Shown here: in pieces, positions 4,106 through 22,422 of the stretch
Position numbering within the stretch: position 1 is the first letter of the stretch
How the letters are laid out: each line of letters opens with the position of its first letter
Source: a virus
Virus record (IMG/VR): IMGVR_UViG_3300009553_000803
Location: 1 to 42,207 of that record
Strand: one strand, 5' to 3'
DNA: 42,207 nucleotides
Program-made: the position numbers and the translations under genes
The notes under the pieces: generated by a model
Database searches by the model: none
Seen by the model: only the letters and a program-made list of their open reading frames with translations
Told to the model about the DNA's origin: nothing

Positions 4106-4150
4106 GGGCCGGCACGCTAACCGCCGCCCGCGGCCGAGCGCGGCCCGTCC

Positions 4151-4177
4151 ATGTTGTGTCGCGTGCCGACACAACAT
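4151..4177. promoter_or_regulatory. 27-bp palindrome, copy 1 (putative late-operon activator site)
   Basis: Perfect 11-bp arms (ATGTTGTGTCG, CGACACAACAT) flank the spacer CGTGC. It sits between the divergent terminase P and scaffold O genes, 46 bp from the P start and 89 bp from the O start. The same arms occur at 12297 and 19213. In P2 the divergent P and O promoters are driven from sites of dyad symmetry bound by Ogr. Here TGT/ACA half-elements are present, but with N11 or N13 spacing instead of the P2 TGT-N12-ACA. Confidence 0.75.
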
Positions 4178-4265
4178 CGCCGCGTTGATCGCCGGCGCCC
4201 TCCCGGTCCCTTTTACGCCGCGAACGGCGCGCCGGCGCCACCGATCAACTGGAGCCGCCCTGGTC

Positions 4266-5147
4266 ATGCCCAAGCTGTCGAAATTCTTCCGCGTCGCCGT
4301 CGAGGGCGCCACCGTCGACGGTCGCACGATCGACCGCAGCTGGATCGCCGACATGGCGGCCAACTATAACCGCGCCACTTATTCGGCGCGCGTCAACATG
4401 GAGCACATCCGCGGCTTCACCCCCGATCCGCCGTTCAACGCCTATGGCGATGTTGCCGCGGTCAAGGCCGAGGACGTCGACATCGTCCTGGCCGGAAAGA
4501 CCGTCAAGCGCCTGGCGCTGTTCGCCCAGCTCGAGCCGACCGAGCAGCTGGTCGCCATCGTCGGAAAGCGCCAGAAACTGTTCACCTCGATCGAGATCGC
4601 GCCCGATTTCGCCGGCACCGGCAAGGCCGGCTTGGTCGGCCTCGCGGTGACCGACAGCCCGGCGTCGCTCGGCACCGAGATGCTCGAATTCTCGGCGAAG
4701 CTCGGCGACAAGTCGCCGCTCGCCGCGCGCAAGCAGGCGCCGGGCAATTATTTCTCGGTCGCCGAGGAAGCGTCGATCGAGATCGAGGACGTCGCCCCGC
4801 CGGCGGCGCCTGAACATGCCGGCTTGTTTGCGGCTGCGACCGCCTTCTTCAAGCAGTTCACCGACGGCAAGGCGCCGCCCGCGCCGGTCGTGCCGCCGGT
4901 CACCCCGCCGGCTGATGCGCCGCCGGCCAACGACAACGACGTTCGCTTCGGCGCGATCGGCCAGGGCCTCGCCAAGATGACCGAAGGTTTCGAATCCTTC
5001 GCGAAGAAGATCGAGGGCGAGGTCGCCGGCTTCCGCACCGAGGTCGCGACCCTGAAGGCCACGATCGAATCGACGCCGGAGAAGGGCGGCACCCCGCCCC
5101 GCAAGCCCGCCACCGGCGGCCGCAACTACGCCGTCACCGACTGCTGA
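4266..5147 (+). CDS. O: Capsid scaffolding protein and maturation protease, P2 gpO family
   Basis: The 293-residue protein has an N-terminal serine protease domain and a C-terminal scaffold. The start of the protein (KLSKFFRVAVEGATVDGR) matches gpO closely. By alignment with P2 gpO (Asp19, His48, Ser107) the catalytic residues are Asp18, His47 in NMEHIRG, and Ser108 in FTSIEI. A proline/alanine-rich linker (about 205-235) precedes a helical scaffold segment, and the protein ends in Asn-Tyr-Ala-Val-Thr-Asp-Cys. gpO guides capsid assembly, then cleaves itself, capsid and portal. Gene order O-N-M-L follows P2. Confidence 0.93.
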   Translation: MPKLSKFFRVAVEGATVDGRTIDRSWIADMAANYNRATYSARVNMEHIRGFTPDPPFNAYGDVAAVKAEDVDIVLAGKTVKRLALFAQLEPTEQLVAIVGKRQKLFTSIEIAPDFAGTGKAGLVGLAVTDSPASLGTEMLEFSAKLGDKSPLAARKQAPGNYFSVAEEASIEIEDVAPPAAPEHAGLFAAATAFFKQFTDGKAPPAPVVPPVTPPADAPPANDNDVRFGAIGQGLAKMTEGFESFAKKIEGEVAGFRTEVATLKATIESTPEKGGTPPRKPATGGRNYAVTDC

Positions 5148-5182
5148 TCGGCCACCACTGACCCCCTGCCGGAGACGCCCCG

Positions 5183-6202
5183 ATGCGTAACGAAACCCGC
5201 CTTCTCTTCAACGCCTACATGGCCCAGATCGCCGAGCTCAACGGCGTCGACGACGTCAGCGTCAAGTTCACCGTCGATCCCAGCGTCGAGCAGACCCTGT
5301 TCGAACGCATGCAGGAATCGTCGGCCTTCCTCGGCATGATCAACATGTTCGGCGTGCCCGAACTGATCGGAGAGAAGATCGGTCTCGGCGTCACCGGCAC
5401 GATCGCCGGCCGCACCAACACCGATACCACCGATCGCCCGACCCAGGACCCGACCGGCCTCACCGGCTTCGACTATCTGCTCGCCCAGACCAACTTCGAC
5501 ACGCATCTCAAATATTCGCGCATCGATGCCTGGGCGAAATTCCCCAACTTCCAGACCATGATCCGCGACGCGATCCTCAAGCGCCAGGCGCTCGACCGGC
5601 TGCTGATCGGCTGGAACGGCACGTCGATCGCCGCCACCACCGATCGCGTCACCAACACGCTGCTGCAGGACGTCAACAAGGGCTGGCTGCACCACATGCG
5701 CACCGACAACGCGGCGCGGGTGATGGACGAAGTCGTTGCCGCCAGCGGCGTGATCAATGTCGGCGAGGGCGGCGACTATGTCACGCTCGACGCCTTGGTC
5801 TACGACATGACCCATTCGTTGCTGCCCACCTGGGCCCGCCGCGACACCGAACTCGTCGCGATCGTCGGCGGCGATCTCCTTCACGACAAATATTTTCCGC
5901 TCATCAACGATGACAAGGATCCGAGCGAGCAGCTCGCCCGCGACATCATCATGTCGACCAAGCGCCTGGGCGGCCTGCAGGCGGTCGAGGTCTACGGCTT
6001 TCCCGGGGATGCGGTCATGGTCACCCGCCTCGACAACCTCTCGATCTACTATCAGGAGGGCAAGCTCCGCCGCGCGATCATCGACAATCCCAAACGCGAC
6101 CGGATCGAGAACTATGAATCGACCAACGAAGGCTATGTGATCGAAGACTTCGACTATGCTTGCATGGCCGAAAACGTCACCGTTCTGCAGCCCGACAACT
6201 GA
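5183..6202 (+). CDS. N: Major capsid protein, P2 gpN family
   Basis: The 339-residue HK97-fold capsid subunit is recognised by its N-terminal block (MRNETRLLFNAYMAQIAEL), by the run of conserved capsid residues around FDTHLKYSRIDAWAKFP, and by its length, close to the 357 residues of P2 gpN. The first 30 or so residues are expected to be removed by the gpO protease. It follows O after 35 bp, with a GGAG ribosome-binding site, and overlaps M by one base (TGATG), so capsid and small terminase are translationally coupled. Confidence 0.95.
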   Translation: MRNETRLLFNAYMAQIAELNGVDDVSVKFTVDPSVEQTLFERMQESSAFLGMINMFGVPELIGEKIGLGVTGTIAGRTNTDTTDRPTQDPTGLTGFDYLLAQTNFDTHLKYSRIDAWAKFPNFQTMIRDAILKRQALDRLLIGWNGTSIAATTDRVTNTLLQDVNKGWLHHMRTDNAARVMDEVVAASGVINVGEGGDYVTLDALVYDMTHSLLPTWARRDTELVAIVGGDLLHDKYFPLINDDKDPSEQLARDIIMSTKRLGGLQAVEVYGFPGDAVMVTRLDNLSIYYQEGKLRRAIIDNPKRDRIENYESTNEGYVIEDFDYACMAENVTVLQPDN

Positions 6203-6936
6203 TGAGCCCGGCGCGCCGACATCGTCTGCGCACGGTCGCGGCGCATCACGCGGCCGCCGTCGCCGATCCGATCGGCGCGGCGGTCGCCGAGGGCGCGACC
6301 GAATATGAGTTGCTGCGCGCCGCGCTCGGCGTCGACCTTCGCCGGCTGCGCGAGATCCAGTCGGTCGAGGCCAAGATCGCGCTCAAGCCGGCACTGATCG
6401 AGAAATTCGAGCCGTGGCTCGCCGGCATCGTCGCTGCGAACGCCGGCGGCCATGACGACATCCTCGTCCAGGTCATGATCTGGAAGATCGACGTCGGCGA
6501 TTTCATCGGCGCGATGCCGCTGATCGATTATGTGCTCAGGCACCGCCTGCAACTGCCCGAGCGCTTCAACCGCACCGCGCCGACGCTGATCGTCGAGGAG
6601 ATCGCCGACGCCGCCCTGAAGGCGCTCGGCGCGCACCAGGACTATGACCTGCAGCTGCTGCAGACGATCGAGCCGATCGCCAACGACTATGACATGCCGG
6701 ACCAGGTCAGGTCGAAGCTGCACAAGGCGATTGGTCTGCAGATCGTCCGGATCACCGAAGCCACGCCGCCCGAGCAGCTGCCCGCCGGCGGCCGCCGCGC
6801 CGGCGTCCAGGCCGCGCTCAATTACCTCCGCCGCGCCTACGGCCTCAGCCACACCGCCGGCGTCAAGAAAGACATCGACCGCCTCGAACGCGAACTGAAG
6901 AAGCTCGAGACGGAAACGGAACAGCCGGCGGTCTGA
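6202..6936 (+). CDS. M: Terminase small subunit (endonuclease), P2 gpM family
   Basis: The 244-residue protein has the gpM pattern: a basic N-terminus (SPARRHRLRTVAA), a helical middle with MIWKIDVGDFIGAMPLIDYVL and LPERFNRTAPTLIVEEIAD, and a charged C-terminal coiled coil (DIDRLERELKKLETETE). In P2 gpM cooperates with gpP to cut at cos. I chose the ATG at 6202, which overlaps the capsid stop, and not the in-frame ATG at 6160 inside N. A perfect hairpin covers its stop codon. Confidence 0.9.
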   Translation: MSPARRHRLRTVAAHHAAAVADPIGAAVAEGATEYELLRAALGVDLRRLREIQSVEAKIALKPALIEKFEPWLAGIVAANAGGHDDILVQVMIWKIDVGDFIGAMPLIDYVLRHRLQLPERFNRTAPTLIVEEIADAALKALGAHQDYDLQLLQTIEPIANDYDMPDQVRSKLHKAIGLQIVRITEATPPEQLPAGGRRAGVQAALNYLRRAYGLSHTAGVKKDIDRLERELKKLETETEQPAV

Positions 6937-6944
6937 CCGCCGGC
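6924..6944 (+). terminator. Strong hairpin over the M stop codon
   Basis: A perfect 9-bp stem (GCCGGCGGT/ACCGCCGGC) with a 3-nt loop overlaps the stop codon of M. It has no T tract, so it may act as a partial terminator, a processing site or a 3' stabiliser. Confidence 0.4.
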
Positions 6945-6951
6945 GCAATGC

Positions 6952-7049
6952 TCGCCCCGCGGCGCTCGGGGGGCGGAACGATCGAGGCCGGTTTGCCGAA
7001 CCTTGCCGGGTCTCGGATCGCTCCCCACCCCCCGTTTGCCGCGGGGCGA
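6952..7049. repeat. Long-range inverted repeat in the M-to-7066 gap
   Basis: Perfect 12-bp arms (TCGCCCCGCGGC at 6952-6963 and GCCGCGGGGCGA at 7038-7049) are separated by 74 bp. They occupy most of the 129-bp gap between M and the small gene at 7066. Folded in the transcript, they would bring the ribosome-binding site (ACGGAG, 7055-7060) close to a long stem. Confidence 0.5.
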
Positions 7050-7065
7050 ACCAACGGAGTGACGC

Positions 7066-7284
7066 ATGCCTGATTTCGACCTGAAGCAGCTGCGCCTCCA
7101 GCCCGGCGACGTGATCGTCGGCCACGTCCCCGATCACGTCGACGCGGATCAAGCATCGGAGATCCTCGCCGATCTGAAGCGCGCGTTCGCCGGGTGCGGA
7201 CATGCCGACGTCAAAATCATCATGCTCAGCGGCGGCATCCGCCTCGAGGTCGAGCCGGTGCCCGTCGACCAGGCGCAACCATGA
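7066..7284 (+). CDS. Small protein between terminase M and head completion L, unknown function
   Basis: A 72-residue acidic protein starts after ACGGAG (about 5 bp upstream) and overlaps the L start by 4 bp (ATGA). It contains an alternating helix/strand pattern (QASEILADLKRAF, then DVKIIMLSGGIRLEV) that could form a small alpha/beta fold. P2 has no gene at this position. The position hints at a head or packaging accessory, but I recognise no family. Confidence 0.65.
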   Translation: MPDFDLKQLRLQPGDVIVGHVPDHVDADQASEILADLKRAFAGCGHADVKIIMLSGGIRLEVEPVPVDQAQP

Positions 7285-7775
7285 GCGGCTTCGTCGCCTC
7301 GCCCCCACCCGCCGAGCCGGACCCCGAGGCGCCCGAGGTGCCGCCGTTCGACCTGGTCGCCGGCGATGACTGGTATCCCGGCATCACCCTCACCCAGATC
7401 CGCGACGCGGTCCGCGTGCCGACCGCGGTCACCGACCAGCGCCTGCGCGACGCGGTCCGCAACGCGATGTTGTCGGTTCGCCGTGAACTCCGCACGTGGA
7501 AGACCGCCTGGGTCGCCGCCGGCACCGCCGCCCTGGTCGACGTCGACGACGAAACCATCGACGGCGAGAGCGCGCTCGAATTGCTCTATCGCCGCGCGGT
7601 CTGCAGCTATGCGGCGGCCGACCTCGCCGAGACCCATGGCGACATCGCCGCCACCGGCGACGGCCGCGATCGCAATGCCGAGCGCGCGATTCCCGCCGAC
7701 GAACATCGCCGCAACGCCACCCATGCCTGCCGCGACATCCTCGGCGTCACCCGCACGTCGGTCGAGCTGATCTGA
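7281..7775 (+). CDS. L: Head completion/stabilisation protein, P2 gpL family
   Basis: The 164-residue protein has the gpL core: DDWYPGITLTQIRDAVRVP, then RRELRTWK, and the C-terminal RDNAERAIPADEH-like region with DILGVTRTSVELI at the end. gpL completes the DNA-filled head at the neck. A proline-rich N-terminus (residues 6-25) precedes the core. The ATG at 7281 overlaps the preceding stop, and its own stop overlaps the X start. Confidence 0.88.
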   Translation: MSGFVASPPPAEPDPEAPEVPPFDLVAGDDWYPGITLTQIRDAVRVPTAVTDQRLRDAVRNAMLSVRRELRTWKTAWVAAGTAALVDVDDETIDGESALELLYRRAVCSYAAADLAETHGDIAATGDGRDRNAERAIPADEHRRNATHACRDILGVTRTSVELI

Positions 7776-8005
7776 TGGCCGCGGCGCCCAGCCCGGCCGT
7801 CACGGTCACCGCCTTCGCCGGCGAATCGCTCGACGCGCTCGTCTGGCGGACGATCGGTCTCGGCGCCAACGCGGTCGAGCTCGTGCTCGAGGCGAACCGC
7901 GATCTCGCCCCGCTCGCCGCGGCGCTGCCGGAAGGCCATGTCGTCGCGATCCCGGCGATCGCCAGCCCCGCGCCGGAGACGGCGCTGATCCAGCTCTGGG
8001 ACTGA
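7775..8005 (+). CDS. X: Tail protein X, P2 gpX family (LysM-like)
   Basis: The 76-residue protein matches gpX: ESLDALVWRTIGLGANAVELVLEANRDLA forms a LysM-like fold, followed by LPEGHVVAIPAI. It contributes to tail assembly in P2. The start overlaps the L stop by one base (TGATG), and the holin follows after 2 bp. Confidence 0.88.
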   Translation: MAAAPSPAVTVTAFAGESLDALVWRTIGLGANAVELVLEANRDLAPLAAALPEGHVVAIPAIASPAPETALIQLWD

Positions 8006-8007
8006 CC

Positions 8008-8361
8008 ATGGACAGCGACAAATTCATTCACGAGATCATGGCCGCGCTCGGCGCCGTCTGCCAGGCGCTGGCGCCGGCCGCGCTCGGCGCGGCGGTCGCC
8101 CAGGCGTGGAAGACCGGCCTCAGCTGGACACAGCGCATCGTCCAGTGGCTGGTCGGCATCTGCGTCAGTTACTACGTCACGCTCGCCTTGGGCGCGACGT
8201 TCCGGCTCGATCCCTTCGTTGCCCAGGCCGTCGGCTTCGTGCTGGCCATGGTCGCGTTCGAGGCCACGCCCAAATTCATCGCCAGCTGCTCGAACGTCGT
8301 CGGCACCCTGCCGGGTGATCTCTACGCGCGCTGGTTCGGCCGCAAGGAGGATGTTGAATGA
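8008..8361 (+). CDS. Putative holin
   Basis: The 117-residue membrane protein has two clear hydrophobic segments, about 44-66 (VQWLVGICVSYYVTLALG) and 70-90 (VAQAVGFVLAMVAFEA), and a weaker one at 18-33. The C-terminus is charged (RWFGRKEDVE). Location between tail X and the lysis enzyme is where P2-like phages carry holin Y. It should permeabilise the inner membrane to time lysis. The assignment rests on topology and position, not on a diagnostic motif. Confidence 0.75.
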   Translation: MDSDKFIHEIMAALGAVCQALAPAALGAAVAQAWKTGLSWTQRIVQWLVGICVSYYVTLALGATFRLDPFVAQAVGFVLAMVAFEATPKFIASCSNVVGTLPGDLYARWFGRKEDVE

Positions 8362-8723
8362 GCTGGATGTGGGATCAGAGCGCCGGAACCCTGTCACGCG
8401 ATGGCGTGCTCGTCTCGCGCGGCTATGCCGGCAGCGGCCGCGGCAGGAATAACCCGGCCCTGCAGGCCGTGCCCTCGGTCGGCCCCATCCCCCGCGGCCG
8501 CTGGCGCATCGCCGGCGTCAAGGACAGCGCCAACACCGGCCCCTTCACGATCGTGCTCGAACCGGCGCCGGGCACCGATGCGCTCGGCCGCAGCGCGTTC
8601 CGGATCCACGGCGACAGCATGCGGGCCCCGGGCACCGCCAGCCGCGGCTGCATCATCCTCCCGCGCGCGATTCGCGAGCGCATCTGGCGCAGCGGCGATC
8701 GCGACCTGATCGTGATCGAGTGA
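8358..8723 (+). CDS. DUF2778 (L,D-transpeptidase-like) protein in the endolysin slot
   Basis: The 121-residue protein carries the DUF2778/Tlde1-type signature: a PIPRGRW motif (44-50), FRIHGDS with His84, and SRGCI with Cys98 as the presumed nucleophile. Proteins of this fold act on peptidoglycan peptides as L,D-transpeptidases or carboxypeptidases, and Tlde1 is a type VI toxin. The gene overlaps the holin by 4 bp and sits where P2 has lysozyme K, and no conventional muramidase or amidase is visible elsewhere. I infer it is the lytic enzyme. It has no signal peptide, consistent with holin-dependent export. Confidence 0.8.
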   Translation: MSWMWDQSAGTLSRDGVLVSRGYAGSGRGRNNPALQAVPSVGPIPRGRWRIAGVKDSANTGPFTIVLEPAPGTDALGRSAFRIHGDSMRAPGTASRGCIILPRAIRERIWRSGDRDLIVIE

Positions 8724-8727
8724 TGCC

Positions 8728-8883
8728 ATGACAGCGATCGTCACCTGGTTCGGCCGGCACCGCGGCATCATCACCTTGCTGCTACTCGCCTCGGCGGTCG
8801 GCGCACTATACGTCGCGTGGCAGCACGTCGCCAGCGAGCGCGATCGCCTCCGCAGCGCGGTCGTTTTCTGCAGGCGATACTGA
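8728..8883 (+). CDS. Small membrane protein, possible spanin remnant
   Basis: A 51-residue frame encodes a basic N-terminus, one transmembrane segment (about 14-31, IITLLLLASAVGALYVAW) and a short charged tail (ASERDRLR). It follows the lysis gene by 4 bp and overlaps tail gene R by one base (TGATG). N-in, C-out topology with a charged tail is the layout of Rz/LysB inner-membrane spanins, but the periplasmic part is far shorter than usual. Confidence 0.6.
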   Translation: MTAIVTWFGRHRGIITLLLLASAVGALYVAWQHVASERDRLRSAVVFCRRY

Positions 8884-9395
8884 TGCGCAAGCCCGCCTCC
8901 CTGCGCGCGGCGATCGCCGCGGTCTTCCCCGCGCTGGCGCGCGATCCCGATCGGCTGCGCATCTGGATCGACAGCGGCCGCATCGCCGCGCGCTATGGCC
9001 CGACGCCGGGCTGGGAATATCGTTACAAGCTCAGCGTCCTGCTGCTCGACTGGAAGGATTCGACCGATCCTTTGCTGCTGGCGATCGTCGGATGGTTGCA
9101 AACCGAACAGCCCGATCTCTTGCAGAATCACGAGCGCGGCAATGAGGCGGTCAAGTTCCGCGCCGACATCCTCGACGACGCGACGATCGACCTGCAGTTC
9201 GATCTCGAGCTCACCGAAACGGTCGGCTGCACCCCGCGCGAGGGCGGCGGCTTCGACCTGATCAACCAGCCCGAACCCAGCCCCGAGGATCCCGGCTTCC
9301 TCGGCCTCGATCCGATCGTCCCGCTCTCGTCGATCTGGATCGACGGCGAGCAGCTGGTGCCCGCGCCTGATCTCGATCCTCCACTGGGTGATTGA
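8883..9395 (+). CDS. R: Tail completion protein, P2 gpR family
   Basis: The 170-residue protein resembles gpR: MRKPASLRAAI at the N-terminus, DPDRLRIWIDSG, the EYRYKLSVLLLDW block, and LLAIVGWLQTEQPDLL. gpR acts at the head-proximal end of the tail. The acidic, proline-containing C-terminus is longer than in P2. The ATG at 8883 overlaps the upstream small gene's stop codon. Confidence 0.88.
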   Translation: MRKPASLRAAIAAVFPALARDPDRLRIWIDSGRIAARYGPTPGWEYRYKLSVLLLDWKDSTDPLLLAIVGWLQTEQPDLLQNHERGNEAVKFRADILDDATIDLQFDLELTETVGCTPREGGGFDLINQPEPSPEDPGFLGLDPIVPLSSIWIDGEQLVPAPDLDPPLGD

Positions 9396-9400
9396 TCGCG

Positions 9401-9868
9401 ATGGCCGACGAACTCGATCAGCTGCAGAATTGGATCGACGGCATCATGGCCCGCGTCGACCAGGGCGAACGCCGCGCACTCGCCCGCCGCATCGCCATGG
9501 AGCTGCGCAAGCGCAACGCGCAGCGCATCCGCGGGCAGGTCGATCCCGAAGGCAAGGCGTTCGCCCCGCGCAAGTTGCGCCTGGGCGGCGCCGGCGTGAA
9601 AGCCACCTCGCGGCGGCGCGGCAAGATGTTCCTGCGCGCGGCGGGGCCCCGCCACCTGACGGCGAAGGCCACCGCCGATCACGCCGAGATCGGCTTCATG
9701 GGCAACGCCGGCCGGATCATGTCCGTCCACCAATATGGCGATCGCGATCGCGTGAGCCGTGCGCCAGGCGCGCCATACACGGTCTATCCGGAGCGCCAGG
9801 CCCTGGGCCTGCCACAAGGCGACGTCGATGCCGTGCTCGAGATGTTGCTCGCACAGCTCGAGGTCTAG
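9401..9868 (+). CDS. S: Tail completion/virion morphogenesis protein, P2 gpS family
   Basis: The 155-residue protein has gpS features: a helical N-terminus (DELDQLQNWIDGIMARV), the RRIAMELRKRNAQRI segment, DPEGKAFAPRK, and MSVHQYGDRDRVSR near the C-terminus. gpS is needed for tail completion and joining in P2. A TTG at 9392 is an alternative start, but the ATG at 9401 gives the usual N-terminus. It is the last gene of the first rightward late operon. Confidence 0.87.
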   Translation: MADELDQLQNWIDGIMARVDQGERRALARRIAMELRKRNAQRIRGQVDPEGKAFAPRKLRLGGAGVKATSRRRGKMFLRAAGPRHLTAKATADHAEIGFMGNAGRIMSVHQYGDRDRVSRAPGAPYTVYPERQALGLPQGDVDAVLEMLLAQLEV

Positions 9869-9881
9869 CCCCGAAAGGGCT
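9867..9881 (+). terminator. Weak hairpin at the end of the O-to-S operon
   Basis: AGCCC and GGGCT form a 5-bp stem with a CGAAA loop, overlapping the S stop codon. There is no T tract. It lies immediately before the -35 box of the PadR-type gene and may insulate that gene from the late operon. Confidence 0.3.
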
Positions 9882-9912
9882 GGACATATACAATGTAGAC
9901 CTCTACATTGTA
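9881..9912 (+). promoter_or_regulatory. PadR-type promoter with overlapping operator
   Basis: A -35 box TGGACA (9881-9886) and a -10 box TACATT (9904-9909) are separated by exactly 17 bp. A perfect 11-bp inverted repeat with a 2-bp centre (9889-9912) covers the spacer and the -10 box. It contains ATGT-N8-ACAT (9893-9908), the known PadR-family operator form. The ribosome-binding site GGAGG (9923-9927) and ATG (9934) follow. The layout implies autorepression. Confidence 0.8.
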
Positions 9913-9933
9913 GACCGACATCGGAGGACGAGC

Positions 9934-10239
9934 ATGTTGGGAAAATTGGAAGAGGAAGTGTTGCTCGCAACGCTTCAGGCCGGGCAGAATTCGCTCCCGA
10001 GCGAGATTTATATCCGGTTCGGTGCGGCTGCGAGCGGCCGGAAGGCGCTGGCCTTCGGAGCAGTCTATACGACGCTCACCCGAATGGTTGCCAAGGGGCT
10101 ATTAACCGAGGATTCGCGCGTTGATGACTCCGGCCGGCAACGTCGCACGTTCACCGTGAATGCAGCAGGTCGGAGCGCGCTCCACAACTCGATCGATCGC
10201 CTTCGTAACTTGGGCGCCTTTGCGTTGGCAGGTGGATGA
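9934..10239 (+). CDS. PadR-family transcriptional regulator
   Basis: The 101-residue protein has the PadR winged-helix pattern: an N-terminal GKLEEEVLLATLQ helix, LPSEIYIRF, the recognition region AFGAVYTTLTRMVAKGLL, and the wing TEDSRVDDSGRQRRTFTV. The C-terminus is short (VNAAGRSALHNSIDRL), without the long dimerisation helix of large PadR proteins. Family members are repressors that release DNA on binding small ligands or stress signals. The gene starts a cargo cassette and is followed after one base by an unknown gene. Its own promoter carries a canonical PadR operator. Confidence 0.88.
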   Translation: MLGKLEEEVLLATLQAGQNSLPSEIYIRFGAAASGRKALAFGAVYTTLTRMVAKGLLTEDSRVDDSGRQRRTFTVNAAGRSALHNSIDRLRNLGAFALAGG

Positions 10240-10240
10240 C

Positions 10241-10702
10241 ATGGGCGATCGAGACCAAAATCGCTTAAAGATGCAGCGTCTTTACTCCCTGCCCCCCGAA
10301 GAGCTGTACGCTGTTCTTTGGAGGGCGTCGCGTCGGGCGTGCGGCATTGACCTAAATGCGGATCCTAGCTCATTCAATACCGGGCAACGTCTTCGGTACG
10401 TTTCTAGTATCGTTCTTCTCAAATTCGTCATATTGATCGAGTTTCCAAATGCATTGGCAAGGCGAGGAACTCGCCCATCCCGGTCGCTTCTCATAGATTT
10501 GCTGGTGCCGCCGAAGCTCGCTCAAGACATGCAGGCGAACCTGCACGAGGTTCTTCCGATATGGGAGAACGCCTACGGTCAACGAAAGGCCCGCTGGGCA
10601 TACCGCACGGAGGTTTTCCGCCTCGTAATAGGGCATTGGGGAAATAATATTTTAAAATTGGCGGAGCGTGTGATGAAGATGCTGCCGTTGAGCAGCGGCT
10701 GA
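10241..10702 (+). CDS. Unrecognised protein co-transcribed with the PadR-type regulator
   Basis: The 153-residue basic protein starts one base after the PadR stop. It contains a hydrophobic stretch (about 55-70, YVSSIVLLKFVILIEF) that could be a buried helix or one membrane segment. It also has a predominantly helical middle and an aromatic C-terminal part (RWAYRTEVFRLVIGHWGNN). Codons are clearly less G/C-biased at the third position than in the surrounding virion genes, which suggests recent acquisition. I recognise no family. Its tight link to a PadR regulator suggests it is the regulated effector. Confidence 0.7.
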   Translation: MGDRDQNRLKMQRLYSLPPEELYAVLWRASRRACGIDLNADPSSFNTGQRLRYVSSIVLLKFVILIEFPNALARRGTRPSRSLLIDLLVPPKLAQDMQANLHEVLPIWENAYGQRKARWAYRTEVFRLVIGHWGNNILKLAERVMKMLPLSSG

Positions 10703-10765
10703 CGAAGATCCAGACCTTGCTACGTGGCGCCCGGACTTAACATCGCGACCAAGCGGTCAATCCAA

Positions 10766-10785
10766 TAGGCCAAGACGTCGGCCTA
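10766..10785. terminator. Hairpin between convergent cargo genes
   Basis: TAGGCC and GGCCTA form a 6-bp stem with an 8-nt loop in the 134-bp gap between the convergent genes ending at 10702 and 10837. It is the only clear hairpin I found in the gap and may serve both strands, although neither side has a long T tract. Confidence 0.35.
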
Positions 10786-10836
10786 ACCCAGCGTCACGTT
10801 AATGTCGTGCTTGAGATACTGATGGCGTGGTTAGAG

Positions 10837-11538
10837 TTATGATCGACTTAAGTCCTCGAGGTGCAAGGCGTTTGCCGACCAATAATGGTCCCGCAGAAAT
10901 TGCTCGAGCACTTTTCGTCGTTCCATGCCTTCCTGCCGAAACGTCTCGGAAGGATTATCAGACAGTGGCTGGTCCCCGTCGCGGATTCGTTTGAAATCAA
11001 TAAGCGCCTTTTCAACAAACCGAATAAAATCCTCAAGCCGCTCAAAAATCTCGGGTCGAATTAAAATTCCGTGCTGGTAAAGAAATCCTACTGCTTCCGC
11101 GATTTTGTCGCTGGCCACATAATGCTCATGATGCACCGACCGTTCATGGTAGAACGCCGTTCTTTGGCCCGTCGGCAGTTGCCGCAGAACTACTTTTTCC
11201 CATTCCGAGAGCGGACTATTTTCTAGCTGCTCCTCCATCATGACCTCGGTGTATTGGTCGAGATTTGGACGCGCCCTGATGCGGGACAGCAAATCGTGGA
11301 CGTGGGCGAAGGCCATATGCACCTTCGCCCATGCTTCCGGCAATGCCTCGAACTCGCGCTGGTTCAACGTCGTCGTGCGATCGAGCGTCTGGCTCACCCG
11401 CGCCTTGAGCAGCTCCAGCCGGCTCGCGAATCGATCCTCGATCCACTTCTCGCCGAACAGCTTGGCAAAACCCCACGCGCCGGCGCCGCCGGCAACGATC
11501 GCCGTGCCCGCCAGCGCGACCCAGTCAACTCCCTGCAT
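10837..11538 (-). CDS. Unrecognised cargo protein with N-terminal membrane anchor
   Basis: The 233-residue protein starts with one hydrophobic segment (about 7-27, ALAGTAIVAGGAGAWGFAKLF), followed by a long, charged, mainly helical cytoplasmic part with coiled-coil character (RFASRLELLKARVSQTLDRT). It lies 19 bp downstream of the 11558 gene on the same strand, so the two probably form one operon. Neither is a P2 core gene. Codon use is less GC-biased than in the virion genes. A membrane-tethered helical protein in a cargo slot suggests superinfection exclusion or host defence, but there is no motif to support this. Confidence 0.7.
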   Translation of the reverse strand: MQGVDWVALAGTAIVAGGAGAWGFAKLFGEKWIEDRFASRLELLKARVSQTLDRTTTLNQREFEALPEAWAKVHMAFAHVHDLLSRIRARPNLDQYTEVMMEEQLENSPLSEWEKVVLRQLPTGQRTAFYHERSVHHEHYVASDKIAEAVGFLYQHGILIRPEIFERLEDFIRFVEKALIDFKRIRDGDQPLSDNPSETFRQEGMERRKVLEQFLRDHYWSANALHLEDLSRS

Positions 11539-11557
11539 TTGCCCTCACGAGAAATCC

Positions 11558-12259
11558 TCAGTCAAAAATCTGAACGATGGCCTCTACACTATCCTGAAAG
11601 CCGGTGAGGCAGCGAAGCACATTTTCACCTTGGATCGAACTAGGATCGACATAGATCAGCTGAATGTTGACGCCGATTTCGCCAAATCCAAGGTACCTAG
11701 CCAGCTTTTCCTCACGCCCGATGGCTTCGAAAACCAGAGCATGGGAGACCAACTGCATCCCCCTTCCGTCCCTTGGAGATGCGTCGCCGGTGAACTGCCA
11801 TCCTAGCAGCTTTTGATGTTTGCGCGTTCTATCCGCGTCGTGAAGTAGGTACAGAAAATCATGACCATCCTGCCAGGGTTCAAGCGCCTCGATCGCGTCC
11901 TGGTGCGCTGCAGATAGCTTTCGGATCTTCTTCCGCCCGTCGCCGGCAAAAACAACCGAATCCTTGGATATCGGAAAATAAACGTCCTTGATGTTGTTGG
12001 CACCGTTGCGGGTAGCCAGCGTGCACGCGAGCGCGTCAAGGATCGCCCGTTGCTCGTGGGCAACCAACCCCACCTCAATTCTAAAACGCGTCGGCGGCTC
12101 AGCTAGCATCTTGCCCATCACGAACCCCATGCCATGCTCAGGATCCGTCATACGAATTTCGAACGACCTCTTTCGAGCGACGCTGATCTCCGGCTTCAGC
12201 GCGTCCATCTTCGCCCGACACCAGGCCAGTCGTTCACGAAGCTCATCGAGATCCCGCAC
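11558..12259 (-). CDS. Unrecognised soluble cargo protein
   Basis: About 233 residues from a GTG at 12259, which lies 8 bp after an AGGAGG ribosome-binding site. A GTG at 12265 is possible but only 2 bp from that site. The N-terminus is helical (LDELRERLAWCRAKM), followed by mixed alpha/beta sequence including FRIEVGLVAHEQRAILDAL, AIEALEPWQDGHDFLYLLHDADR and a C-terminal VLRCLTGFQDSV. No catalytic signature is obvious. It heads a two-gene leftward operon whose -35 region lies inside palindrome copy 2. Confidence 0.7.
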   Translation of the reverse strand: MRDLDELRERLAWCRAKMDALKPEISVARKRSFEIRMTDPEHGMGFVMGKMLAEPPTRFRIEVGLVAHEQRAILDALACTLATRNGANNIKDVYFPISKDSVVFAGDGRKKIRKLSAAHQDAIEALEPWQDGHDFLYLLHDADRTRKHQKLLGWQFTGDASPRDGRGMQLVSHALVFEAIGREEKLARYLGFGEIGVNIQLIYVDPSSIQGENVLRCLTGFQDSVEAIVQIFD

Positions 12260-12279
12260 CGCCACGCCCTCCTGGAACG

Positions 12280-12308
12280 ACTATAGCCGCCCCGCCATGT
12301 TGTGTCGC
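12280..12308 (-). promoter_or_regulatory. Putative promoter of the leftward cargo operon
   Basis: Read on the - strand, GCGACA (12303-12308) and TATAGT (12280-12285) are separated by 17 bp and resemble -35 and -10 boxes. The -35 box falls within the left arm and spacer of palindrome copy 2. A protein bound to the palindrome would therefore contact or occlude this promoter. Confidence 0.45.
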
Positions 12309-12323
12309 GCCCCGACACAACAT
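12297..12323. promoter_or_regulatory. 27-bp palindrome, copy 2
   Basis: The same perfect 11-bp arms as copies 1 and 3 flank the spacer CGCCC. It lies between the leftward cargo operon (start 12259) and baseplate gene J (start 12368), 45 bp from the J start. That is close for an activator site of the P2 Ogr type, which is centred near -55 relative to the transcription start. Confidence 0.75.
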
Positions 12324-12367
12324 GCCCCGGTGGCGGCCCGCCGCACCACGCGGCGACATGCCGCGCC

Positions 12368-13360
12368 ATGGCCACCAGCTCAACCGCCGTCGATCTGTCG
12401 CGCCTGCCGCCGCCCGTCGTCGTCGAGCAGCTCAGCTTCGAGACGATCGTCGCCGAAATGATCGCCGATCTCACCGGGCGAGACGTCGGCTTCGACGCCA
12501 ACGTCGAATCCGATCCGGTCTACAAGCTGGTCCAGGTCTTCGCCTATCGCGAGCTGCTGCAGCGCCAGCGCTTCAACGATCGCGCGCGCGGCCTGATGCT
12601 CGCCTTCGCCGCCGGCGCGGATCTCGATCAGCTCGCCATCCTCGTCGGCGTCCAGCGCCTGGTCCTCGAGGAGGCCGATCCGCTCGCCGGCACGCCGGCG
12701 GTGCTCGAGTCCGATGACGCGCTGCGGGCACGCGTCGTGCTCGCCCCGGAGAGCTTCAGCGTCGCAGGTCCCGAGCTCGCTTACGTCTTCCATGCGAAAT
12801 CCGCCGCCGGCGACGTGCTCGATGCCAGCGCGATCAGCCCGGTGCCCGACGATATCACCGCCCTCGTCCTGCAGGTCCTCGCCGATCACGATGCCGATCC
12901 CGAGATCGTCGCCGCCGTCACCGCAGCGCTCGGCGCCGCGATCTGGCCCGGCCAGGTTCATGTCACCGTGCTGTCGCGCGATGGTGACGGCACCGCCCCG
13001 CCCGAATTGCTCGAGGCGGTCGAGGCCGTCGTCAACGGCCGCCCCGTCCGCCCGCTGACCGATCATGTCATCGTCCAGTCGGCGGCGATCGTCGAATATG
13101 CGATCGCGGCCAGGCTCTACGTTTACGACGGTCCCGACCCGTCGATCGTCGAGGCGGCCGCCCTCGCCAAGCTCCAGGCCTATCGCGATGCCGCGCACAT
13201 GCTCGGCCGCCCACCGACCTTGTCGGGCATCTATGCCGCCCTCCACGTCGAGGGCGTCCAGCGCGTCGTCATCGACGATCCGCTCGCCGACATCATCGCC
13301 GATGCCACGCAAAGCGCCTGGTGCACCGGCATCACATTGACGGTCTTGCCCATTGGCTGA
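12368..13360 (+). CDS. J: Baseplate wedge protein J, P2 gpJ family
   Basis: The 330-residue protein has the gpJ pattern: a VDLSRLPPPVVVEQLSFETI start, DPVYKLVQVFAYRELLQRQR, and FAAGADLDQLAILVGVQR. The middle and C-terminal parts contain WPGQVHVTVLSRDGDG and a conserved end. It builds baseplate wedges with W and I. The ATG at 12368 gives the canonical N-terminus, and longer frames read back into the palindrome. It overlaps I by 8 bp. Confidence 0.92.
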   Translation: MATSSTAVDLSRLPPPVVVEQLSFETIVAEMIADLTGRDVGFDANVESDPVYKLVQVFAYRELLQRQRFNDRARGLMLAFAAGADLDQLAILVGVQRLVLEEADPLAGTPAVLESDDALRARVVLAPESFSVAGPELAYVFHAKSAAGDVLDASAISPVPDDITALVLQVLADHDADPEIVAAVTAALGAAIWPGQVHVTVLSRDGDGTAPPELLEAVEAVVNGRPVRPLTDHVIVQSAAIVEYAIAARLYVYDGPDPSIVEAAALAKLQAYRDAAHMLGRPPTLSGIYAALHVEGVQRVVIDDPLADIIADATQSAWCTGITLTVLPIG

Positions 13361-13991
13361 TCTCCTGCCCCCTAACGCCACGGCGTACGAGCGCGCGGTC
13401 GACGCTGTCGGCGCGCGCATCGACGATGTGCCCGTCCCGCTCCAGACGATTCTCAACCCCGCCACCTGCGCGGCCGAGCTGCTGCCCTGGCTGGCCTGGT
13501 CGCTGTCGATCGACCGCTGGAACGCCGACTGGACCGAGGAACAGAAGCGCTTCGAAGTCGCTCGCGCGATCGACCTCCAGCGCAAGAAGGGCACACCCGC
13601 CTCGGTCGAGGCGGTGCTCGCCAGCTTCGACGAGCTGCTGACGATTACCGAATGGTTCGAACAGCAGCCGCCGGGCCCGATCCACAGCTTCGTGATCGAC
13701 CTCCCGCTCGACGATCAGGGCGGCCCGCGTGCGACCGCCGCCTTCACCGCCGCCGTCGTGCGTGACGTGATCCGGATCAAGCCGCTGCGCTCGCATTTCG
13801 AGATGCGCCAGTCGCTCGCCACCTTCGCCCGGATCTACCTCGTCGGCGCCGCGCGCGCCGCCGGCGAGACCCGGCTCCGCGGCGACCTGACCGACATCAC
13901 CGGCGGCACGGCCTGGGAGGACCTGCTCCAGGACGAAAATGGCGAACCGCTCCAGGAAGATTCCGGCGCCTTCATCGAGAACGACACATGA
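13353..13991 (+). CDS. I: Baseplate/tail protein I, P2 gpI family
   Basis: The 212-residue protein is recognised from LLPPNATAYERAVDAVGARI, VPVPLQTILNP and LLPWLAWSLSIDRWNADW, all typical of gpI, followed by the KKGTPASVEAVL helix. It completes the baseplate wedge and attaches tail fibres. The best start is a TTG at 13353 overlapping the J stop, because no ATG or GTG precedes the conserved region. It overlaps H by 4 bp. Confidence 0.9.
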   Translation: MADLLPPNATAYERAVDAVGARIDDVPVPLQTILNPATCAAELLPWLAWSLSIDRWNADWTEEQKRFEVARAIDLQRKKGTPASVEAVLASFDELLTITEWFEQQPPGPIHSFVIDLPLDDQGGPRATAAFTAAVVRDVIRIKPLRSHFEMRQSLATFARIYLVGAARAAGETRLRGDLTDITGGTAWEDLLQDENGEPLQEDSGAFIENDT

Positions 13992-15466
13992 CCAGCCCTC
14001 TCACCGTCACGTTCACCTATGAGGGCATCGCCGCGATCGCCGATGCCGAGGGCGGCGGCACGTCGACGATCACCATCGCCGAGGTCGGCCTGACCGCGGA
14101 AGATTTCGTCGAAGCGCCCACCCTCACCGCCTTGCCCGGTGAATTCGGCCGCCTCGCATCGGTATCGGGCGAAGCTGTCGACGACGCCACCATCCACCTG
14201 GTCGCGCGCGACGGCGGCGCCGGCAGCTACACCGTGCGCGGCATCGGCATCTATCTCGACGACGGCACCCTCTTCGCGACCTACAGCCAGGCCGACCCGA
14301 TCTTCGAAAAGGCCAGCGTCGCGAGCTTTTTCCTCGCCTTCGATTTGCGGCTCGAGCCGGGCCAGGCGGACTTGATCGAGTTCGGCGACGCCAACTTCCT
14401 CAACCCGCCGGCCACCGAAGAGCGCGCCGGCGTCGCGCGCATCGCCACTGCGCTCGAGGCGGCCGCCGGCACCGATCACGACATCATCATCACGCCGGCC
14501 ACGCTCAAGACCCTGCTCGATCTGCTGATCCCGCTCGCGCAGAAAGCCGCGGCCAACGGCGTCGCCTCGCTCGGCGCCGATGGCAAGGTCCCGCCGGCGC
14601 AGCTCCCCGTGTTCAACGCGATCGACATCTTCGTCGTCGCCAGCCAGGCCGCCATGTTGGCGCTCGCCGCCGGCGTCGCCGACTTCGCGATCCGCACCGA
14701 CGAGAGCAAGACCTACATCCTCACCGCCCTGCCGGCGACGACACTCGGCAACTGGGTGGAATTCTTGGCCCCGGGCGCCCCGGTCATCTCGGTCAACGGC
14801 CTGACCGGCGCCGTCACCCTTTCCCCGGCTGACATCGGCGCCCCACCCGTCGCGCGCACGATCACCGCCGCCGGTCTCGCCAGCGGTGGTGGCAATCTGT
14901 CCGCCGACCGCACGATCACTGTCACCAAGGCCAGCCAGGCCGAAGCGGACGCCGGCCTCAACGACACCAAGGCAGTCACCCCGCTCGCGCTCGCCGGGAT
15001 CCTCGCCGCGATCGCGGCCAAGGCGGCGGCCGCCATCACGATCACTGGCGGCGGCCTCGCCACCGGCGGGGGCAACCTCGGCGCGAATCGTGTCATCACC
15101 GTCGCGAAGGCGAGCGGCGCCGAGACCGTCGCCGGCCTGCTCGACGATCGCGCCGTCACCCCGCTGTCGCTCGCCAGCTACCCTCGCGTGCTCTCGACCA
15201 ATGGCTATTGCCTGCTGCCCAGCGGCCTGATGCTGCAATGGGGCCGCTTCACCGCGAACCCCAACGGCACGACGACGATCAACCTGCCGACAACATTTCC
15301 CAACGCCTTTTTCTCGGTCGTCGCCAACGGCACCAGCGATCACAACCTCGGCGCTCAGGACAACTGGCCGGCCCCGCTCAACCCGCCGCCGAACTTGGGG
15401 CAATTCCAGGTGATCAGCCCCAATGGCTCACCCGACTCCATGTATTTCATCGCAGTGGGAATGTGA
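13988..15466 (+). CDS. H: Tail fibre protein, P2 gpH-like
   Basis: The 492-residue fibre has the standard N-terminal attachment domain (about 1-140, with IGIYLDDGTLFATYSQ and FDLRLEPGQAD) used by P2-like phages to bind the baseplate. A helical/linker section is followed by two copies of a roughly 55-residue unit. The C-terminal domain (about 405-492: LPSGLMLQWGRFT, LPTTFPNAFFSVVAN) resembles the gp53-type receptor-binding tip. It should mediate host-surface recognition. A second, enzymatic spike lies downstream. Confidence 0.88.
   Translation: MTSPLTVTFTYEGIAAIADAEGGGTSTITIAEVGLTAEDFVEAPTLTALPGEFGRLASVSGEAVDDATIHLVARDGGAGSYTVRGIGIYLDDGTLFATYSQADPIFEKASVASFFLAFDLRLEPGQADLIEFGDANFLNPPATEERAGVARIATALEAAAGTDHDIIITPATLKTLLDLLIPLAQKAAANGVASLGADGKVPPAQLPVFNAIDIFVVASQAAMLALAAGVADFAIRTDESKTYILTALPATTLGNWVEFLAPGAPVISVNGLTGAVTLSPADIGAPPVARTITAAGLASGGGNLSADRTITVTKASQAEADAGLNDTKAVTPLALAGILAAIAAKAAAAITITGGGLATGGGNLGANRVITVAKASGAETVAGLLDDRAVTPLSLASYPRVLSTNGYCLLPSGLMLQWGRFTANPNGTTTINLPTTFPNAFFSVVANGTSDHNLGAQDNWPAPLNPPPNLGQFQVISPNGSPDSMYFIAVGM
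14842..15181 (+). repeat. Tandem protein-level repeat in the tail fibre shaft
   Basis: Two adjacent units encode closely related peptides. The first includes GLASGGGNLSADRTITV and ends KAVTPLALA. The second includes GLATGGGNLGANRVITV and ends RAVTPLSLA. Each is about 55 codons, and the DNA has diverged. The duplication probably sets shaft length. Confidence 0.75.
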
Positions 15467-15467
15467 G

Positions 15468-15956
15468 ATGAGCAAGCTTTACAGCCCCTCGACCGGCCTG
15501 TTCTACGCTCCCGAACTGTTCGTCGGTCGCGTCCTGCCCGACGATGTCGTCAACGTGAGCGACAAGCGCCACGCCGAGCTGCTCGACCTGCAGGCCCAGG
15601 GCCGCACGATCGCAGCCTCGCGTGATGGTCGACCCACCGCCACGGCGCCGCGCGCGCCGACACTCGAGGAACGCCGTGAGGCCGCGCATCGCGCCGTCGC
15701 CACCGAGGCCGGCCGCAGGATCCTGGCGATCGCCTCGTTCGCACGCCAGAGCAACGACAACGCGCTGATGGTCACGGCCTGGATCACCGCCGCAGACATC
15801 TCCTCGCCCGAGATGCAGGCCGCCTTGGCGCGCCGCGCCGCGATCGACGCGATCCGCACCGCCTCCAACCGCCTCGACGCCGCGATCGCGCTCATGAGCG
15901 CACGCCAGCTCGCCGCGCTCGAGATCGGCGCCGACCTCCACTGGCCCAAGGACTGA
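15468..15956 (+). CDS. Tail-fibre accessory/assembly protein (gpG position)
   Basis: The 162-residue protein follows the fibre gene by one base and occupies the position of the P2 tail-fibre assembly chaperone G. The N-terminus ([15 protein letters not shown]) resembles the start of many tail-fibre assembly and spike-associated proteins. A helical, alanine-rich C-terminal part follows ([40 protein letters not shown]). The functional assignment is by position and general look. It could equally be a small structural protein. Confidence 0.6.
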
Positions 15957-15958
15957 CG

Positions 15959-18943
15959 ATGTCGAAGATCTCTCTTTTGCCGGATGCAGAGGTCGGCGAC
16001 TTTGTCGTCGTGCTCGAGGACGGTATCGCGAAGAAGCGCGCCGTGCCGAGCTTGGTGGGAGACGCTGCTGCAACCGCGATCGGGGCAGCGTCGTCATACG
16101 CGGATGCAGCGGCAGTGTCGGCCGCGCAGGCCGACGTGGCTGTTTCAACCGTCAACGGTCCGCTCCTTACTGCGCGCATGAATGCGATCCTCGCCACCGC
16201 TGATCAGTTCGATTCGATGTCGGGCGCCTCCAGCGAAGCTACGGTCACCACGCGCGCCTACATCGCGGTTGCCGCGGATGCCGGCGTCGACCTCGTCGTC
16301 GGCAAGGCGATCGATGCGATCCGGTGGGACATCAAGCTCCCGGTCGGCGCCCAGAATCTCCGCATGGAGATCTACATTGTTGATACGTCTCATTCGGCGG
16401 TGGATAGCGCCGCGCCTGGCACGGCGCCTTACACCGCTCCGGTACAGACAATCGACATCGCACCGGCGGCGGCAGGCATCACCCCCGGTGCCGCGTCCAT
16501 CGCCGAGGCCTCGATCCCTCTCACCACGCCGATCGTCGTCGCTGCCGGCAAGACCTACATGGTCACGCTGGACAGCAATGACGGTCTTCTTGGGGTCGGC
16601 TCGCGTACGACGATCGATTACGGCTATCGCGCGACGATCAACAACGCAGTTGTGACCGGGTCGATCAGCGGCACGACATTCACAGTGACCGCGGTGACAT
16701 CGGGCGCGCTCGCCGCTGGCATGACGTTGACGGGGACGGGGTTTTCCACCGGCACACAAATTCTTGCGCAGCTCACCGGCACTCCGGGCGGCGTCGGCAC
16801 GTATCAGGTCAGCGTGTCGCAAACGCGCGCCAGCACGACCGTCACCGCACTCTACCAGAGGCTGCGCGGGCGCTATCATGGAACCACGGTCACTGCGACG
16901 TGGAGCAATGCAACAGTGGCTCAGCAAATCGTATTCCGCGCGGCGACCAAGCGCACGGGCGATCTCCTGAATTTGGAAGGCGTGCAGGCTGCCAACGTCG
17001 CTGCGCAGCTTCGTTATGAGCGCGATCTCGAAATCACGACCCTTATGGAAGTCCAGCGCATTAACGACGCGGCGCTGGCGATGTCGCGTCAGCTTTACCC
17101 TCTGAGCATTGCCCCGTGGCCCGCAGCTACGCTGACTGCAGTTGGTGAGGCGTATGCCGCGCTGCTTCCCTACAATCCGGCTACCAACTACAGCGCCGGC
17201 GCTGACGGCATCGCGACTGTCAATCAGGGCTGCACCGATCAAGGCTATGTATGGCTTTACCGGAACGGTACCGGCGGCGCGGGCCATGCTCCACCCATCT
17301 ATCCGATACTCGGTGACGCATATTGGGTCGTCGTTGGACGCGTGAATCTAACGGGCGACAGCACCACACAGGAAACCCAAATCGGGCCACTGGTCGGCGT
17401 GCAGGGCGATGCAGACCTCGTCTATGACCGCACGAGCGACTTGATGCAGCCTTGGCTACAAACTGTCGTGAACCAGAAGGGGCATAGCGGCCAGACCGCG
17501 CAGCAGATCCGTGATCGCATTATCGCTTGGTCCACGGTGCAAAAGCAGGAAACGAGCGTCGTCGGACTGACCACGAACAATTACGACGAAATCGGCCAGC
17601 CCGGCGTTACGACTTCCGATCAGACGGCCGCGATCATGGCCGTGGTACAGGCGGGTTTCGATGCAATTCCTCATTCCCGCAAGATGTTTTGGGGTGGTCA
17701 GACCGGCCTGGCTGGCACGCGCACGTTCGGCACGGTGAGCAAGCTCGCCTCGTTGATGAGGGCGGCGTTCGGCGTCAATTTTTGGGATCACTATGCCGCG
17801 TTACATCCTTATGTGAGCTCGAGGAGCAAAGCAGACCTCGACAGCTTGAAAGCGGGCGGCATGCCGCTGTCCGTGATGGCCGACAGTACGCATTATGACG
17901 ATCCCATCGCCGAGCCTGGAGCGCGCGAAAAAGCACGCCTGGTCCGCACGATGGAAATCGGCCAGCCTTACGTCCAGCCGGAGCGCAAACTATTCGTAAT
18001 TCGCACGGGCGATGCAGCCGACGCTACGATCGTACCGGCACGCATCGCCGGTTCTCCCAAGCATTGCGCTCTGTTCCGTGCGCAGGCTGATGACGTCGTG
18101 CGAATCGATCCAGTTACGGGCGCGCTAAAGCGTGGCGCCGGCCCCATCCCTTTTGAGTTGCGGGATTATTATATCGAAGCAAGGCACCATTTCGGCCATC
18201 ACATCGGTCGGCGGACATTGGTGCGCGGCATGGACGGCACCAATCCGGCGATCGGAGGTATCCGGTTCAATGGCACCGGCATGCAACTGCTGGGTACGCC
18301 GGGATGGGGAAATGCCGCAGACGGCAAAAAATTCACGCTCGTTGTCTGCGCTCGCTTCCTTACCGGAGCTTCGGGCGGACTGATGGGACCGGGGGCTTGG
18401 TGCAATGTGCTCAATAAGTCGTTCCGATTCATCCCACGAACCTCGGCTGGCACGTCGATCGCCTCGGCCACGGCGCCGCAGGCGGACCATCCAGAGCAAT
18501 ACAATATGTATTTCTTCACGGTCGACACCACGACTGGGACTCAACGGTGCCAGGCGGCAGTCAACGATAAGGCGGTCGCGACGGCGGTTCCTACGGCCGA
18601 TGCAATTGTTGGTATTCAGTCAATCCTAAATTTGTTCGGGTCGAACGGCTTGCCCCTTGCCAACATGGACATAAAAACCATGTGGATGATCGACGACACT
18701 TTCGATTTTTCAGATCAGGCAAACCGAAACTTGTTCTGCGCAACGTCGACCGTCAACGTCCCGAAGGACCTCGGCGCTACCGGTGCGGTCAGCGGTCTCA
18801 CGCCATTTTACTATAATGTCGGCTATTGGGGCGATTGGGCCAGCGGCCGCAATCTGGGCGACGGCGGCGACGTCTACTTGCCCACTTGGATCGATTCGAG
18901 CCTGTGCAGCATGGCGTCGCCAAGCGATCTCGTGATGGTTTGA
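15959..18943 (+). CDS. Large tailspike with SGNH-hydrolase signature and lectin-like C-terminus
   Basis: The 994-residue virion protein is modular. Residues 1-70 are an alanine-rich attachment region. About 85-225 is beta-rich. Residues 228-297 carry a glycine/threonine-rich insert of the [13 protein letters not shown] type, common in phage tail proteins. The SGNH hydrolase blocks are GDS (466-468, Ser468), the glycine block GHSG (508-511), TTNN (538-541) and the DSTH pair Asp642/His645. The C-terminal part (about 755-950) looks like a LamG/concanavalin-type jelly roll. SGNH spikes usually deacetylate or de-esterify surface polysaccharide. Third codon positions are clearly less GC-rich than in neighbouring genes, which suggests the gene was acquired as a unit. 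Confidence 0.8.
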
Positions 18944-18948
18944 GAGTG

Positions 18949-19140
18949 CTATAGCTGGGTGGCTGAATAGCAATCCTTGCACCGCTCTTCCCAGTCGCCG
19001 AGCGGCCCGCCGCAATCGCCGCAGACCCCGGCAGCTATCCGGTCGGCCTTCCGCTGTTCCGCCTCCTGATCCTGTTGACGCATCCACCGAAAGAAATTCA
19101 GCGGTGCGTGCAGCACCCAAAGCAGGAAGTCTCTGATCAT
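18949..19140 (-). CDS. Small membrane-associated zinc-ribbon protein
   Basis: The 63-residue protein begins with an amphipathic/hydrophobic stretch (IRDFLLWVLHAPLNFFRWM), then a charged helix, then a zinc ribbon CGDCGG...CKDC near the C-terminus. The ATG at 19140 has a good AAGGAG site just upstream. It is transcribed against the late genes and lies only 5 bp from the tailspike stop, facing it. Palindrome copy 3 lies upstream. Function unknown; a leftward gene between two late operons is a typical cargo position. Confidence 0.65.
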   Translation of the reverse strand: MIRDFLLWVLHAPLNFFRWMRQQDQEAEQRKADRIAAGVCGDCGGPLGDWEERCKDCYSATQL

Positions 19141-19212
19141 CGGCGGCGCTCCTTTCGGCGCCACATAACCCTGCCGCGCCGCAGCAGCAACACCACCAGC
19201 CCCCGCCCGCCG

Positions 19213-19239
19213 ATGTTGTGTCGGCACGCGACACAACAT
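19213..19239. promoter_or_regulatory. 27-bp palindrome, copy 3
   Basis: The same arms as copies 1 and 2 flank the spacer GCACG, and the symmetry extends to 13-bp arms here (19211-19241). Including its spacer it is the exact reverse complement of copy 1. It lies between the leftward zinc-ribbon gene (start 19140) and the rightward operon starting at 19319. On the - strand side a TTATGT about 60 bp from the centre could be a -10 box. Confidence 0.75.
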
Positions 19240-19318
19240 CGGCCCCGCGCGCGTCGCCGCGCCTCTCGCCACCATGCCGCCGCTCCCTGCCCGCTGGGCG
19301 ACATGATGAGGCGACACG

Positions 19319-19798
19319 ATGAATCTCAAGCTCGCGGCCGGCAGCGTCACGCGCCTGGCCAACACCACCGCCTACGCGGCCAACGATCTGCTCGCGAATC
19401 ACGCCACTGCCGGCAGCGTCGTCCCGATCGCGATCGCCGTCGCGCGCGTCATGGGCGGCAGGGGCCGCATCACCCGCGCCGCACTGCTCAAATCGAACGC
19501 GGTCCTCACCAACGCCCAGTTCCGCATCCACCTCTTCAACCAGGCGCCTGCTGTTACCAACGGCGATAACGGCGCCTTCGCCGTCACCAACGGCCGCGCC
19601 AAGGGCTATCTCGGCTCGGTTGACGTCACGGTCGACGTCGCGATCGGCGACGGCGCGCAGGGCGACGCGGCCTGCGACATCATCTTCGATGCGGCCGCTG
19701 GCTCGTTGAATGTCTACGCGCTGATCGAAGTGCTCGCCGCCTACGGGCCTGCCAGCGCCGAAATCTTCACCATCCAGCTCGACGTCGAGCGCCCCTGA
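19319..19798 (+). CDS. Putative virion-associated protein at the head of the V-W-FI operon
   Basis: The 159-residue protein has no charged catalytic motifs and is rich in alternating beta strands. It contains VTRLANTTAYAANDLLAN, RITRAALLKSN, FRIHLFNQAPAVTNGDNGAF, AKGYLGSVDVTV and EIFTIQLDVERP. Similar proteins occur in many siphophages and myophages as small structural or decoration proteins of unknown role. It sits first in the rightward baseplate/tail operon, 2 bp ahead of V, so a baseplate or tail decoration role is inferred. Confidence 0.65.
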   Translation: MNLKLAAGSVTRLANTTAYAANDLLANHATAGSVVPIAIAVARVMGGRGRITRAALLKSNAVLTNAQFRIHLFNQAPAVTNGDNGAFAVTNGRAKGYLGSVDVTVDVAIGDGAQGDAACDIIFDAAAGSLNVYALIEVLAAYGPASAEIFTIQLDVERP

Positions 19799-19800
19799 CG

Positions 19801-20714: not shown

Positions 20715-20723
20715 GAGCCCGCC

Positions 20724-21857: not shown

Positions 21858-21880
21858 TCCGTCACTTTAGGAGTTAAGTC

Positions 21881-22390: not shown

Positions 22391-22422
22391 ACTCCCTTTC
22401 CGACCCAGCCAGGATCTGACCC

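Follow-up and report, generated by a model that had tools for sequence, protein, structure and literature searches.

The window, meaning the whole 42,207-nucleotide stretch analysed here (IMG/VR record IMGVR_UViG_3300009553_000803), comes from a P2-like virus whose late region was recognised by Pfam and NCBIfam. Homologues of P, Q, O, N, M, L, R, S, J, I, V, FI, FII, T and D sit in late operons (Table 1). Between S and J, positions 10160-12265 hold lower-GC ORFs (GC3 0.61-0.65) without family matches, which are likely lysogenic-conversion cargo. The tail fibre is followed by a 994-aa ORF (15959-18943) having no Pfam, NCBIfam or PADLOC match. After D, positions 26899-27631 encode a HigB-like toxin, scoring below the Pfam cut-off, and then an HTH protein, together possibly a toxin-antitoxin pair. 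Rfam and tRNA scans of the window returned no matches.

Table 1. Features of the late region and its predicted control elements, in window coordinates.
Feature	Position	Strand	Basis or remark
Late operon 1, left: Q portal and P terminase ATPase	1278-4105	-	PF04860, PF06056, PF03237, PF17289
Predicted -10 of P promoter, TTAGCGT	4114-4120	-	From family-wide AnnnT position; predicted start ~4108, 2-3 nt before P ATG at 4105
Palindrome copy 1 (putative operator)	4151-4177	.	Spacer CGTGC; single site between divergent P (-) and O (+)
Copy 1 core, TGT-N13-ACA	4155-4173
Predicted -35-like element of O promoter, TTGATC	4185-4190	+	TTG invariant in relatives; weak -10, CCCTTT (~4208-4213); predicted start ~4220
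Late operon 1, right: O (scaffold), N, M, L ... R, S (head and tail completion)	4266-9868	+	PF05929, PF05125, PF05944, PF05926, PF06891, PF05069
Palindrome copy 2 (putative operator)	12297-12323	+	Spacer CGCCC; upstream of J-I-H baseplate/fibre operon
Predicted -10 of J promoter, CGACAT	12354-12359	+	Predicted start ~12366; J ATG 12368
Late operon 2: J, I, tail fibre, downstream ORF	12368-15956	+	PF04865, PF09684, PF21882
Palindrome copy 3 (putative operator)	19213-19239	+	Spacer GCACG; upstream of V-W-FI-FII-E-T-D tail operon
Predicted -10 of V-operon promoter, CACCAT	19270-19275	+	Predicted start ~19282; first ATG 19319
Late operon 3: unknown ORF, V, W-position ORF, sheath, tube, tape measure, D	19319-26834	+	TIGR01644, TIGR01611, PF04984, PF10145, PF05954
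Ogr/Delta-type late transcription activator, 103 aa	30832-31143	+	PF04606, phrog_603, motif scan

A preliminary description of this DNA had reported three perfect palindromes with 11-bp arms and a 5-bp spacer, and we found them exactly at 4151, 12297 and 19213. The pattern ATGTTGTGTCG-N5-CGACACAACAT has exactly three matches in the window, the next best match to the arms reaches 14 of 22 arm bases, and the 8-base half-site TGTTGTGT occurs only at the three palindromes. No copy of this pattern with three or fewer mismatches appeared in 100 dinucleotide shuffles of the window. The spacer sequences bear out the reported relationship among the copies: over its 27 bp, copy 1 is the exact reverse complement of copy 3, and copy 2 departs from both in its spacer only. 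There is a ~1% chance for any two of three random GC-rich spacers to match or be reverse complements. The arms were also said to be constant while their surroundings were not; indeed, the 60-bp flanks on each side of the three copies are unrelated, at 30-47% identity. The copies are therefore not duplicated blocks, and their match is confined to the site itself. Among 2.9 million IMG/VR contigs, no other record contained the exact 22 arm bases, although near copies of the window's own record may have been left out.

The placement of the palindromes was as described too, in gaps between divergent genes and ahead of late operons (P/O, J and V), and nowhere else. Each copy has a minus-strand ORF on one side and, on the other, a late operon on the plus strand. 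At copies 2 and 3, the minus-strand neighbors are low-GC or small ORFs without a family, divergent from the J and V operons. The neighbor adjoining copy 3, a 63-aa ORF (18949-19140, minus strand), has a zinc-ribbon pattern of the form CxxC...CxxC and is divergent from the V operon. Reduced to its core, the dyad reads TGTTGT-N13-ACAACA, extended in the window to perfect 11-bp arms, and this TGT...ACA dyad stands upstream of every late operon in the window and in no other place, giving three sites at three positions.

The window also encodes a predicted reader of the palindrome. The ORF at 30832-31143 matched the Ogr/Delta family PF04606 (E 1.1e-9, 38.5 bits against a cut-off of 26.3) and the transcriptional regulators of phrog_603 (E 4e-18). 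A motif scan found a zinc finger with exact CX2CX22CX4C spacing, the signature given for Ogr (PMC3931495). The closest Ogr we found to that of the window is in genome G022 (62%). Ogr ORFs that each contain a tandem pair of Ogr-type zinc-finger domains were seen in L161, L169, L158, L171 and L172 (for L018, L031, L037, L043 and L094). Their layout resembles that of P4 Delta, and many phages with a single domain have operators that look more symmetric than those of these tandem-domain phages.

Sites of this kind have already been described in related phages. The four late promoter regions of phiRSY1 carry TGTTGT-(X)13-ACAACA, a motif that matches phiRSA1 and is related to that of P2 (PMC5694545). 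The window shares with these two phages the core hexamers, the 13-bp spacing, the kinds of operons and an Ogr homologue with a conserved zinc finger. It differs from them in its perfect 11-bp arms and in having one copy for P and O together, hence three sites rather than four regions. The late motif of P2 is TGT-N12-ACA, as is that of Smp131, where one site was proposed to be read both ways for P and O (PMC3931495). In the P2 record, the divergent pO and pP promoters share one annotated activator site, with starts 55-56 bp from the site center, and the V start site coincides with the V start codon. Likewise, the record of phage 186 (NC_001317) has one B-protein site between divergent late promoters.

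Like the P2 Ogr/P4 Delta system, the window has one site between pP and pO, others at tail operons and a CX2CX22CX4C activator, and P2 pO/pP even has the half-site TGTTGTGTC in common with it. Unlike P2, the window has N13 spacing and perfect symmetry, its operons are J-I-H and V...D instead of VWJIHG and FI...D, and ogr lies in the early region rather than after D. Phage 186 resembles the window in its single activator site between divergent late promoters and its homologous zinc-finger activator, but its operators are asymmetric and just one other late site is annotated in it. The sites of both P2 and 186 are less symmetric than the window dyad. Smp131 agrees with the window in using one site in both directions for P and O and in having separate J and V operons, whereas its reported spacing is N12 rather than N13.

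Relatives of the window provided a view of how the site is positioned. Most related loci with an intact P-O gap have a TGT-N13/14-ACA at a near-constant place within it. We anchored 37 dereplicated P sides on the TGT...ACA core. In 25 of them a -10-like AnnnT follows the core at positions 36/40, against 0-7 for other offsets, and 35 of the 37 have their ATG at positions 46-49. With standard spacing from -10 to start, P transcription would begin at position 47, which would put the dyad center at about -55 and the 5' end of the mRNA approximately at the ATG. This geometry suggests that the terminase (P) mRNA is leaderless in most relatives, starting from a start codon at the predicted transcription start (~35 relatives). 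On the O side, all 42 dereplicated P-O gaps carry a -35-like TTG at positions 12-14, 17 bp ahead of the -10-like region. In the literature collection searched, nothing was found on leaderless P2 gene V or on Ogr in Peduoviridae.

The relative in genome G022 has a 72-aa ORF inserted between P and O, and the enlarged gap (L179 9561-9929) contains two operators, one per divergent promoter (G022 29460 and 29810), an arrangement that would follow if every promoter required a separate dyad at a set distance. The rule has exceptions, since relatives such as L004, L047, L065, L116 and L119 lack a TGT-N12-14-ACA in this gap. L116 and L119 nonetheless encode Ogr. The P-O operators of L116, L119, L047 and L065 may be of another type.

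At the P2-like distance from the window dyads, the P, J and V promoters have fair -10-like elements and the O promoter a weak one; the J and V promoters are without a -35 TTG. These elements would place start sites in the window near 4108, 4220, 12366 and 19282.

Late sites within a phage share the P-O arms far better than do sites of other phages: of 14 variable letters, the best own site matched 9.75 and those of others 4.1 (Wilcoxon p 2e-8). Repeated arms were ATGTTGTGTCG three times in the window, GCGTTGTAGAT three times in Salinicola, TGTTGTGTCT three times plus one variant in Sphingomonas sp. R647, and CTGTTGTATCG three times with 14-bp spacing in genome G023, while L105 and L118 had no second site with the same spacing. 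Across 32 phages, operator distance correlated with Ogr distance when structural-gene distance was controlled for (partial Mantel r 0.31, p 0.0002) and did not correlate with structural-gene distance once Ogr was accounted for (r 0.04, p 0.25), with both p-values approximate because the sequences are related. That the operator tracks Ogr rather than the structural genes suggests that it is Ogr that reads the dyad. We regard it as an evenly balanced proposition that P2-like phages in general have private arm codes and spacing (13 or 14) matched to their own Ogr, with largely orthogonal activators, and that their terminase (often also J) operon is leaderless.

The same comparison bears on whether the dyads are instead operators of another phage regulator, such as a CI-like, Cox-like or HTH antitoxin protein, repressing late genes or divergent lysogenic-conversion genes. 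HTH proteins are encoded at 28884-29357 and 27233-27631, and the divergent ORF at copy 2 has a TATAGT-like -10 adjoining the dyad. However, operators of this type would be expected around the repressor or early region, and none of the copies is located there; the TGT...ACA sites of relatives, moreover, fit the published Ogr motif and track Ogr sequence. We consider this alternative improbable.

There is a smaller chance still that the repeats work in RNA, as terminator or attenuator hairpins. As RNA they fold with energies between -19 and -31 kcal/mol and z values as low as -6, yet they stand between divergent genes, upstream of the predicted starts and without a T tract. We rejected this explanation on the basis of relatives, several of which keep the TGT...ACA and its position with poor arm complementarity (5-8 of 13-14), implying that pairing is not the conserved property.

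Scattered copies in host DNA had been named in advance as the result that would speak against late control. We scanned the whole genomes of two relatives' hosts, Sphingomonas sp. R647 and a Salinicola, and did not find them: all four TGTTGTG-N11-CACAACA sites of R647 and all three operator sites of Salinicola fell inside the prophage. A window-type operator (two or fewer mismatches) was present in one of 101 genomes around R647, namely in the R647 prophage. The fourth Ogr-type operator of R647 (L182 8338; G030:C8:248335) lies upstream of a D12 DNA methyltransferase, whose relative in the window (334-1152) has no such site. That the repeats are a mobile or recombinogenic palindrome, either REP-like or a replication or packaging signal, is scarcely credible given unrelated flanks, exact placement at late operons in many phages and confinement to the prophage in both hosts, even though there are three near-identical copies with copies 1 and 3 in opposite orientation.

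Taken together, the palindromes of the window are very probably operators for the phage's own Ogr/Delta-type activator, forming a late switch of the P2 type. The preliminary description had also read them as Ogr late-control sites, which is supported by the PF04606 protein, the placement of the sites, the phiRSA1/phiRSY1 motif, the relatives and the covariation with Ogr. From sequence, we infer Ogr binding, dimerization, polymerase recruitment, the start sites and leaderless initiation of P and J. After induction, Ogr would bind the dyad, in the simplest case as a symmetric dimer that places one zinc finger on each TGT/ACA half-site. With the dyad center ~55 bp upstream of each late transcription start, bound Ogr would recruit host RNA polymerase to promoters with poor -10 and -35 elements. 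The single P-O site would serve both divergent promoters, and copies 2 and 3 would switch on the J-I-H and V...D operons.

Such a switch is ordinary in kind, and the form in the window is unusually symmetric. What is new is of modest value, comprising the covariation between operator and Ogr and the leaderless geometry. For the phage of the window, the late-gene switch can be assigned at the strength given above, and its symmetric operator would be a clean system in which to study DNA recognition by the small Ogr zinc finger. More broadly, the paired Ogr and operator sequences from 32 phages provide a testable map from residue to base.
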